Of a stretch of DNA of 64,000 bases, positions 22,786 through 24,017 are shown in pieces. The notes beneath the pieces are model-generated. The model was given only the letters and a program-made list of their open reading frames with translations, searched no databases and was not told where the DNA came from. The stretch's first letter is position 1; the number at the start of each line of letters is the position of its first letter. This DNA is from Enterobacter sp. RHBSTW-00994 (GTDB lineage: Bacteria; Pseudomonadota; Gammaproteobacteria; Enterobacterales; Enterobacteriaceae): contig NZ_CP056199.1 of NCBI RefSeq assembly GCF_013782625.1, positions 1,010,588 through 1,074,587 on the forward strand, in the 5' to 3' direction. A program made the position numbers and the translations under genes.

Positions 22786-22810
22786 GCAGACATCTGCTCA
22801 GTGAACTGAA

Positions 22811-22838
22811 ATCCCGGTCAACAGACCGGGATTTTTTT
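22811..22838 (+). terminator. secF operon terminator
   Basis: ATCCCGGT (22811-22818) pairs with ACCGGGAT (22825-22832), followed by a run of seven T. It lies 25 bases after the secF stop. Confidence 0.9.
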
Positions 22839-22856
22839 GTCTGTATCTGGCAAACA

Positions 22857-22880
22857 CTCCTGACAGTATGCTGTCAGGAG
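22857..22880. promoter_or_regulatory. operator-like perfect dyad before VOC/WYL genes
   Basis: CTCCTGACAG and CTGTCAGGAG are perfect 10-bp inverted arms around TATG. The right arm CTGTCAGGAG is repeated at 22913-22922, where it includes the ribosome binding site of the next gene. The arrangement suggests autoregulation by the downstream WYL regulator. It could instead fold as an RNA hairpin. Confidence 0.6.
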
Positions 22881-22927
22881 CCCTGTCATACACTCCTTCT
22901 GAACCCAAACAACTGTCAGGAGGATGT

Positions 22928-23293
22928 ATGAAAAACGTCATTAACTGGTTTGAAATTCCGGTCACAGATATGGATCGCGCCATTAAATTTTACGAACCAG
23001 TGATGCAGGTATCGCTACGTCGCGAGAAAATGGATTGTGCCGAGCTGGCGGTTTTCCCGCATGAAGACCCGGCCACGGGTGGTGCGCTGGCAAAATTTGA
23101 TGGTATTACACCGTCGCATCAGGGCGCTATTATTTACCTGCATACGGACAACCTGGCGGCTACGCTCGATCGTGTCGTATCCGCGGGTGGCAAGTGTGTC
23201 TTTGGCCCGCTGGAACTGCCGCAGGGGATTGGCACTATCGCGCTGTTTACCGATAGCGAAGATAATCGTCTTGGCCTTCATCAACCTGCCTGA
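22928..23293 (+). CDS. VOC-family (glyoxalase/bleomycin-resistance fold) protein
   Basis: A 121-residue vicinal-oxygen-chelate fold protein made of two beta-alpha-beta3 modules (NWFEIPVTDMDRAIKFYEPV; IIYLHTDNLAATLDRVVSAGG then LFTDSEDNRLGLHQ). No obvious full metal-binding His/Glu set can be assigned by eye, so enzyme or binding protein cannot be decided. The start at ATG 22928 is set by AGGAGG 4 bases upstream; longer in-frame versions would begin inside the operator dyad. It is followed after 14 bases by the WYL regulator, so they form an operon. Confidence 0.85.
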   Translation: MKNVINWFEIPVTDMDRAIKFYEPVMQVSLRREKMDCAELAVFPHEDPATGGALAKFDGITPSHQGAIIYLHTDNLAATLDRVVSAGGKCVFGPLELPQGIGTIALFTDSEDNRLGLHQPA

Positions 23294-23307
23294 TACCCGG
23301 AGAATGT

Positions 23308-23988
23308 ATGACCCGACGCGCTGACCGATTGTTTCAGATTGTGCAGATCCTGAGAGGCAGGAGACTGACAACGGCAGCGCATCTGGCGGACAGACTGAAT
23401 GTGTCCGAACGTACTGTCTACCGTGATATCCGGGATTTATCGCTCTCGGGTGTGCCTGTTGAAGGGGAAGCCGGGAGTGGTTATCGGCTGATGTCGGGTT
23501 TTGATTTACCTCCTCTGATGCTGACAAACCGGGAGTCAGAGGCGTTGATTGTGGCGATCCGCCTGCTCAAAACCTGGGGCGGGGAATCTCTGTCACGCGA
23601 GCTTGAATCGGCTCAGGAAAAAGTGCTGGCGATCCTGCCGGAGGAGAGTCGCCGTAAGGCGGAGCAGACACGGCTGTTTGCTCCGGATATGGGGACTCAA
23701 TTGCATTCAAAAAGCAACTTTGATGTGATCCATCAGGCCATTGCTTCCCAGCAAGTTTTGGCGCTGCATTATCGGGACGAGAGTGGTCAGCTGTCGTGGC
23801 GTGATGTTCAGCCCCTGGGCATGTTTTTCTGGGGAGAGCACTGGTTGCTGGTTGCATGGTGTGAACGTCGTGACGATTACCGTTGCTTCCGACTCGACCG
23901 GTGTTTGAATATCGCGGTGACGGACAGGCGATTTAGCGAGAGTACAGAGCGGTCTCTGGCTGATTTTCTGCGAAAAGTTAAGCAATAA
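23308..23988 (+). CDS. YafY-type HTH/WYL-domain transcriptional regulator
   Basis: A 226-residue regulator with an N-terminal winged helix (residues about 5-60: LTTAAHLADRLNVSERTVYR, of the HTH-11 type) and a C-terminal WYL domain (about 138-215, with GMFFWGEHWLLVAWC and RCFRLDR). WYL domains sense small ligands or nucleic acids; the ligand here is unknown. It is cotranscribed with the VOC gene, and a perfect dyad upstream of the pair is its likely operator (inference from position). A terminator follows immediately. Confidence 0.85.
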   Translation: MTRRADRLFQIVQILRGRRLTTAAHLADRLNVSERTVYRDIRDLSLSGVPVEGEAGSGYRLMSGFDLPPLMLTNRESEALIVAIRLLKTWGGESLSRELESAQEKVLAILPEESRRKAEQTRLFAPDMGTQLHSKSNFDVIHQAIASQQVLALHYRDESGQLSWRDVQPLGMFFWGEHWLLVAWCERRDDYRCFRLDRCLNIAVTDRRFSESTERSLADFLRKVKQ

Positions 23989-24017
23989 AAAAGCCAGCAT
24001 TACGCTGGCTTTTTTAT
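23986..24017. terminator. bidirectional terminator after WYL regulator
   Basis: AAGCCAGC (23991-23998) pairs with GCTGGCTT (24004-24011) with A-rich left and T-rich right flanks. The stem starts at the regulator's stop codon and also faces the 3' end of tsx. Confidence 0.85.

Follow-up and report, generated by a model that had tools for sequence, protein, structure and literature searches.

A Conserved Dyad at the -35 Position of Promoters Associated with Short WYL Regulators

A 24-bp dyad upstream of a glyoxalase-fold (VOC) gene in Enterobacter sp. RHBSTW-00994 is, as far as sequence comparison indicates, a genuine and widely conserved regulatory site of a WYL regulator. The short WYL protein encoded by the second gene behind the dyad probably binds there and would act, much as DriD does, as an activator at a promoter that has no -35 element. 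YafY-like WYL regulators are, to our knowledge, widespread and mostly uncharacterized, and a searchable proteobacterial promoter code would turn them into a testable regulon.

Results

A Perfect Dyad Precedes a VOC-WYL Gene Pair

The window analyzed here is a stretch of 64,000 nucleotides from the Enterobacter sp. RHBSTW-00994 chromosome (a single 4.89-Mb contig), in which secF and tsx flank the VOC-WYL stretch. E. coli K-12 has yajD at this position between secF and tsx, and a megablast search of an E. coli genome collection with window positions 22787-24000 gave no match. A plasmid record of Enterobacter hormaechei carries a WYL gene 88% identical to that of the window. The VOC gene runs from an ATG at 22928 to a stop codon at 23291-23293, with the WYL gene immediately 3' of it. 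Because the WYL gene directly follows the VOC stop, the two probably form one operon. The features of the region are the following:

22808-22835, + strand: terminator-like hairpin 3' of secF (sequence)
22857-22880, + strand: 24-bp dyad CTCCTGACAG-TATG-CTGTCAGGAG, the proposed WYL-regulator site over the -35 position (repeat search, orthologue conservation, logo)
22889-22894, + strand: proposed -10 hexamer TACACT, 8 bp 3' of the dyad (sequence; NANNNT offset in relatives)
22901-22902, + strand: predicted transcription start, about 7 nt 3' of the -10 hexamer (from the position of the -10)
22913-22922, + strand: third half-site CTGTCAGGAG over the VOC Shine-Dalgarno, not conserved (exact in 1 of 39 loci)
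22928-23293, + strand: VOC/glyoxalase-fold gene, 121 aa, first target gene (Pfam PF00903, E = 1e-09)
23308-23988, + strand: gene for a 226-aa HTH_11 and WYL regulator without WCX domain (Pfam PF13280 and PF08279; model)

The arms of the dyad (22857-22866 and 22871-22880) are complementary at all 10 bp and enclose a TATG loop, as seen by direct reading and by repeat search. The sequence is as a sequence-only reading of the window had described it: a perfect 10-bp dyad with a third half-site over the ribosome site of the VOC gene. With up to three mismatches, CTCCTGACAG-N4-CTGTCAGGAG occurs once in the window (0 in 100 shuffles) and once in the 4.89-Mb genome (0 for a backwards control). Single half-sites with at most one mismatch are more frequent, occurring 13 times in the window against 2.7 expected. 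A consensus scan of the window sequence found no sigma-70 promoter with a -35 element before the VOC gene, and none turned up at the dyad sites, so an ordinary promoter of this kind was rejected.

The Dyad Is Conserved with the WYL Regulator

Lack of the dyad before orthologous gene pairs had been named in the sequence-only reading as one outcome that would refute it; the comparison came out in favor of the dyad, which lies upstream of the VOC gene in all 39 family loci that have both genes. In 41 of 295 sampled family genomes there is a close WYL relative, with an identity of 54% or more and in one case fragmented. All 41 contain CTNCTGACA-N6-TGTCAGNAG with at most one mismatch, and in 38 the match is exact. 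Among the remaining 254 family genomes the same pattern is exact in one (G027) and has one mismatch in 21, many of which are copies of the same few sequences; the backwards control with one mismatch was present in 2 of the 295. One of the 21 sites (G219) adjoins a WYL gene of 39% identity.

The wider samples comprised 185 class, 197 order, and 200 phylum genomes. The exact dyad is rare in them, being present in 20, 27, and 19, respectively, and of these carriers 19, 26, and 19 also have a WYL match with E of 1e-30 or better (these tallies, like those for the family, were made by eye from tables, and the class, order, and phylum samples share some genomes). The backwards dyad was absent from all three samples of 185, 197, and 200 genomes. 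Conversely, 15 of 34 class genomes, 25 of 51 order genomes, and 32 of 51 phylum genomes with a WYL match of this strength had no exact dyad; some of them carry class B or one-mismatch sites (see below), and some carry other WYL branches.

Sites were also sought from the side of the regulator gene. TGACA-N6-TGTCA spaced words occurred in 46 of 56 WYL loci with less than 75% mutual identity and in 0 to 3 of the reversed sequences; other words, likely conserved coding sequence, reach up to 47 of 56, some of them also low in the reversed set. We distinguish class A sites, with a spacer of 6, from class B sites, which read CTGACA-N4-CTGWCA. A dyad or close variant of either class was found near 211 of 228 related WYL genes, while reversed sequences gave 1 of 228 and shuffled ones 1 of 684, in a score that counts the -10 as a bonus and whose class B rule was set after inspecting the same data; the loci are partly close relatives and are the best-scoring matches of searches capped in number, and a slightly different earlier scan gave 212. 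The other 17 loci had no site above threshold. The 228 loci comprise the top 30 family matches and 40 further ones, up to 30 each from the class, order, and phylum samples, and the best 80 named loci, which among the matches listed come from alpha-, beta-, and gammaproteobacteria and a few others; L072-L100 (dyad matches fetched twice) and nine repeats were dropped. Direct-repeat operators, first seen in L119, L121, and L125, were rejected as a separate type, as they have the same CTGACA-N4-CTGWCA geometry as other class B sites.

Several loci carry additional elements. Mesorhizobium-like loci (L184, L186, L244, L247, and relatives) have two dyads upstream of the WYL gene, with loops GACTGC and GTATGT-like, which suggests two promoters for one regulator. 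An extra CTGACA stands in tandem 11-13 bp upstream of the left half-site of the dyad in L003, L013, L104, and L116. In the set of 127 sites described below, a tandem CTGACA (at most one mismatch) lies 11 bp upstream of the dyad in 12 and TGTCAG lies 14 bp downstream in 8, with a background mean below 1 in both cases. Extra half-sites beside the dyad are a minority feature.

The Dyad Occupies the -35 Position

For analysis of promoter anatomy, 127 non-redundant sites (of 191) were picked by dyad core letters and palindromy and deduplicated at less than 60% identity over 80 nt downstream; the loop and the -10 were not used in picking. The logo of these sites reads CTnCTGACA-nnAyGC-TGTCAGnAG, followed by 8 bases and a -10 (T49 A93 T50 A46 C42 T78 percent), the core letters being conserved partly by construction. 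NANNNT stands at +8 in 98 of the 127 sites, and none of the other offsets between -2 and 29 exceeds 13 sites; for the stricter TANNNT the count at +8 is 51, compared with at most 8 elsewhere. A TTGACA-like hexamer (4 of 6) with a spacer of 15-19 is present in none of the 127, a result that is partly forced by the fixed dyad letters. With a 17-bp spacer, a -35 hexamer would fall on the loop of the dyad itself. Judged by these alignments, the dyad occupies the -35 position of a promoter.

Unlike the symmetric arms, the conserved loop nnAyGC is asymmetric (A 87%, G 94%, C 74%). In the window the loop (22866-22871) sits where sigma-4 would be. The sites have polarity: at 160 of 171 class A sites the orientation agrees with that of the WYL gene, and 30 of 41 class B sites are found downstream of that gene and aim at the next one. 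In the family loci the first start codon is typically 44-51 bp 3' of the dyad.

A Segment Behind the Dyad Covaries with the Ribosome Site

Control at the RNA level, by hiding of the ribosome site, had been suggested from the sequence alone. The idea itself finds support; its partner segment does not, for the sequence that pairs with the ribosome site appears to be the -10/discriminator segment (about 22889-22902) rather than an arm of the dyad. The two arms of this hairpin are:

22889-22902, + strand: 5' arm of a predicted hairpin that would form mainly in transcripts from upstream (folds; covariation)
22916-22928, + strand: hairpin 3' arm, from the Shine-Dalgarno to the A of the start codon (folds; covariation)

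In the family loci the segment behind the dyad pairs with its own ribosome site at -14.5 kcal/mol and with swapped ones at -10.7 kcal/mol, beating the median swap in 25 of 29. Over 130 non-redundant sites the values are -9.54 (own) and -7.32 (swapped), with 88 of 130 better (Wilcoxon p = 5.6e-8). In a separate count by group, own pairing beat the median swap at 13 of the 15 family loci, 62 of the 87 remaining class A sites, and 20 of the 32 class B sites. These tests were confined to leaders of 22 to 75 nt and, for the 130 sites, to ATG starts. The pairing excess peaks at -1.9, with a 12-nt arm that begins 3 nt into the -10, and stays small (0.1 to -0.4) over the dyad and the transcribed leader. 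Stems of at least 8 pairs are found at 85 of the 130 sites, compared with a mean of 60.4 and a maximum of 70 in 20 rounds of chimeras, and stems of at least 6 pairs at 103, compared with a chimera mean of 81.3. Control gene starts gave no such difference (own -8.36, swapped -8.12, p = 0.90, n = 116), nor did 35 predicted K-12 promoters, a small control (own -5.77, swapped -6.03, 15 of 35 better). In L128 of G027, the segment behind the -10 still has 8 bp of complementarity to the ribosome site of the VOC gene.

One reading of these data is that the -10-to-start segment complements the ribosome site so as to shut mainly transcripts arriving from upstream, while the mRNA of the promoter itself has little of the 5' arm and would stay open. 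This would add to the activator model rather than compete with it, and we see the odds as evenly balanced. The hairpin would form mainly in upstream transcripts because, on average, 72% of the paired bases of its 5' arm lie 5' of the start; these starts are themselves predicted. Other points temper the idea: the ribosome site is predicted to open only modestly more (0.53 versus 0.45, higher in 77 of 130), pairing of -12 or below is seen at 35 of 130 sites but also at 17 of 116 control starts, and the complementarity might be a DNA-level inverted repeat for another protein. We therefore present the covarying -10/ribosome-site hairpin as a lead. If borne out, it would be economical, keeping a gene silent unless its own promoter fires.

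Genes behind the Dyad

Near WYL genes, the first gene behind the site matches glyoxalase/VOC in 71 of 97 representatives, from which apparent antisense or spurious frames had been removed by eye. At least six others are glutathione transferases, and SDR, LysE, hydrolase, and GyrI-like genes are single cases. The WYL gene is itself the first gene at 10 of 202 sites.

Exact dyads seemingly away from WYL genes were examined in 31 stretches, two of which hold a WYL gene, leaving 29 far sites. In two genera the gene behind the far site is alkC, both times with a complete class A promoter. The two proteins share 53% identity; one matches AlkC in the PDB (E = 1e-63) and the other matches Pfam DNA_alkylation (E = 2e-5). 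A methyladenine glycosylase gene (tag) is divergent from one alkC, on the side without a -10. uvrB lies behind far dyads in six genomes of one genus; two of these genes were identified by family search, and the other four were assigned because their proteins begin alike. This genus also has the one uvrA site, and recA is likewise a single case. Other far-site genes are three VOC, one EVE, one ABM, one thioesterase, and one polyketide-cyclase-like gene, together with one that is ABM-like by eye without a family match and one GFA gene on a side without a -10; the remaining six of the 29 sites have no clear gene or another one. Four far dyads of one genus (L288, L291, L295, and L297) stand before a 152-161-aa protein starting MIDSGFET, of which the L291 copy has no family match.

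The promoter is not equally evident at all far sites. All 9 far sites from the class sample have NANNNT at +8 on one or both sides, against 3 of 20 from the phylum and order samples. The 17 far sites (of 29) that lack it on both sides include all of the uvrB, uvrA, and recA sites, and because of this absence the geometry of the latter is taken to be different or degenerate.

The far sites at alkC, uvrB, uvrA, and recA suggest, as far as gene content can, a DNA-damage and electrophile regulon, and they point to DNA repair outside SOS. A damage-related role for the window copy would be argued from these relatives, because its own genome has a single dyad site, that before the VOC gene.

The WYL Protein Is Short and Resembles Activators

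The window protein has an N-terminal HTH domain (PF08279, E = 1.3e-17) and a WYL domain (PF13280, E = 5e-20). A C-terminal WCX domain, which most though not all WYL regulators have, is missing from its 226 residues, and the model stops one helix past the WYL domain. The AlphaFold model has a mean pLDDT of 81.5 and a pTM of 0.54. Its closest PDB matches, and those of the sequence, are DriD and PafBC, with a poor global superposition on both (TM about 0.5).

Among 25 aligned WYL proteins, R35 and R39 of the recognition helix are invariant, as are R188, R192, R195, and R198, of which R195 and R198 belong to the WYL domain. In SiwR, mutation of R38/R42 and R204/R207 abolished induction (PMC10693628). 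The pairs R35/R39 and R195/R198 have the same spacing, which suggests that they are equivalent to these residues.

The window genome contains one match to the window WYL protein, and a profile adds two weak partial matches; the locus holds one WYL gene. A weaker WYL relative could conceivably provide the partner for a heterodimer.

Discussion

The sequence comparisons place the site near the regulator, at a fixed distance from the -10 in most cases and without a -35, and they point to kinship of the regulator with DriD and PafBC. From these we infer binding, dimerization, activation rather than repression, and the nature of the signal. In the model that we favor, a WYL homodimer probably binds the two CTGACA half-sites that flank the -35 position. 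The bound dimer would help RNA polymerase to initiate at promoters with a -10 but lacking a -35 hexamer. The target families (VOC and GST) and the far sites at alkC, uvrB, uvrA, and recA suggest DNA or electrophile damage as the signal. It may be sensed through single-stranded DNA, as it is in DriD and PafBC. Should short proteins of this type turn out to activate while lacking a WCX domain, they would reveal the minimal architecture of this class of activators.

The sequence-only reading had proposed an autoregulated VOC/WYL switch. Its pairing of the dyad with the WYL regulator stands, and autoregulation is likely in the window locus because both genes lie behind the promoter of the dyad. 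This cannot be generalized: of the 41 class B sites, 30 follow the WYL gene and point at the next gene, and 29 exact sites are distant from WYL genes. The repressor-operator sense of the switch appears less likely than activation. In an autorepressed operon, the WYL protein on the dyad would block the VOC promoter until a ligand releases it. We consider this unlikely, even though the dyad covers the -35 position, so that a bound protein could block polymerase, and VOC and WYL are neighbors on one strand. BrxR and CapW, which are repressors with operators, are also among the weaker structure matches of the model. The fixed 8-bp gap to the -10 and the absence of a -35 are expected of an activator but are not needed by a repressor, and in both structure and sequence the best matches, DriD and PafBC, are activators.

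It is very improbable that the dyad belongs to another regulator and is near WYL genes incidentally. G027, G460, and G499 do hold an exact dyad without a close WYL match, but these are single genomes of 295, 197, and 185, and the remaining exact dyads of these samples are in genomes whose WYL match reaches E 1e-30 or better. In G027 (locus L128) secF, the dyad, and the VOC gene are intact, the WYL gene is gone, and a convergent gene comes next.

The third half-site is, to judge from the alignments, no general part of the system. It is exact in 1 of the 39 family loci (that of the window itself) and has one mismatch in 2, so that neither the role given to it earlier nor a part in the operator could be upheld. 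Pairing of the dyad arm CTCCTGACAG in the mRNA with this half-site (22857-22866 with 22913-22922), also proposed earlier as a means of hiding the ribosome site, is the least credible of the alternatives and largely refuted. It reaches 10-11 bp in the window genome (11 bp for 22857-22867 with 22912-22922) and 9 bp in one further locus (L020). However, it shows no covariation (own -6.76, swapped -7.14 kcal/mol, with own pairing ahead of the median swap in 11 of 29), transcription is predicted to begin downstream of the arm, and in predicted folds of longer transcripts the two dyad arms pair with each other instead.

Returning to the activator model, we put forward a broader and more tentative proposal, which we hold to be possible rather than probable: that short, WCX-less WYL proteins run a LexA-independent damage and electrophile response in alpha-, beta-, and gammaproteobacteria, in which CTnCTGACA-N6-TGTCAGnAG replaces the -35, the targets are VOC and GST genes near the regulator and alkC, uvrA, uvrB, and recA far from it, and these targets carry a hairpin that silences read-through.

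Among the open papers searched, no title or beginning of an abstract reports a CTGACA-type dyad motif for YafY-like regulators; the parallels lie with better-studied WYL proteins. According to a preprint (PMC12340889), the binding site of DriD overlaps the -35 and keeps a constant distance to the -10, and sigma-4 lies between the two DNA-binding domains of the protein. The present system is DriD-like in its palindrome over the -35, fixed -10 distance, poor -35, and protein plan (HTH, helical linker, and WYL domain), and DriD is the top match of the model. The damage theme is that of DriD and is suggested in the relatives studied here by the far sites at alkC and uvr genes. The sites themselves are unlike, ATACGAC-N7-GTCGTAT in DriD and CTnCTGACA-N6-TGTCAGnAG here, and the latter departs from the DriD consensus. 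DriD, which is known to bind single-stranded DNA, also has a WCX domain, whereas the window protein ends after its WYL domain.

PafBC of mycobacteria, a heterodimeric WYL activator that works by sigma adaptation, has the promoter motif tTGTCRgtg-8 nt-TannnT (PMC5656591) and inserts between promoter and sigma-4 (PMC11804915). The motif is close to TGTCAGnAG-8 nt-TAnnnT here, which is one base longer, and in replacing the -35 contact and regulating recA PafBC again resembles the dyad promoter. It differs in being a heterodimer of two WYL proteins with a single -26 motif touched by PafB, where we find a palindrome and one short protein, and in having a WCX domain, which the window protein lacks. 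SiwR of Mycobacterium smegmatis, which controls dinB-like genes, is a homodimeric WYL activator that needs the -26 region and binds a palindrome (PMC10693628). The homodimer, the imperfect palindrome between -35 and -10, and the stress activation of adjoining genes would be shared features, and SiwR has glyoxalase-like neighbors in some actinobacteria, as the window protein has VOC. SiwR differs in its 19-bp palindrome, its WCX domain, and its actinobacterial origin. The phage-defense WYL regulators BrxR and CapW combine a WYL domain with an N-terminal DNA-binding domain as here and match the model less well in structure.

The hairpin has a parallel of its own. In the fold-back protection of IS10, a hairpin that forms only in transcripts from outside hides the ribosome site. 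The effect would be like that proposed here; IS10 is a transposon, whereas the present hairpin belongs to chromosomal genes and is deduced from covariation.
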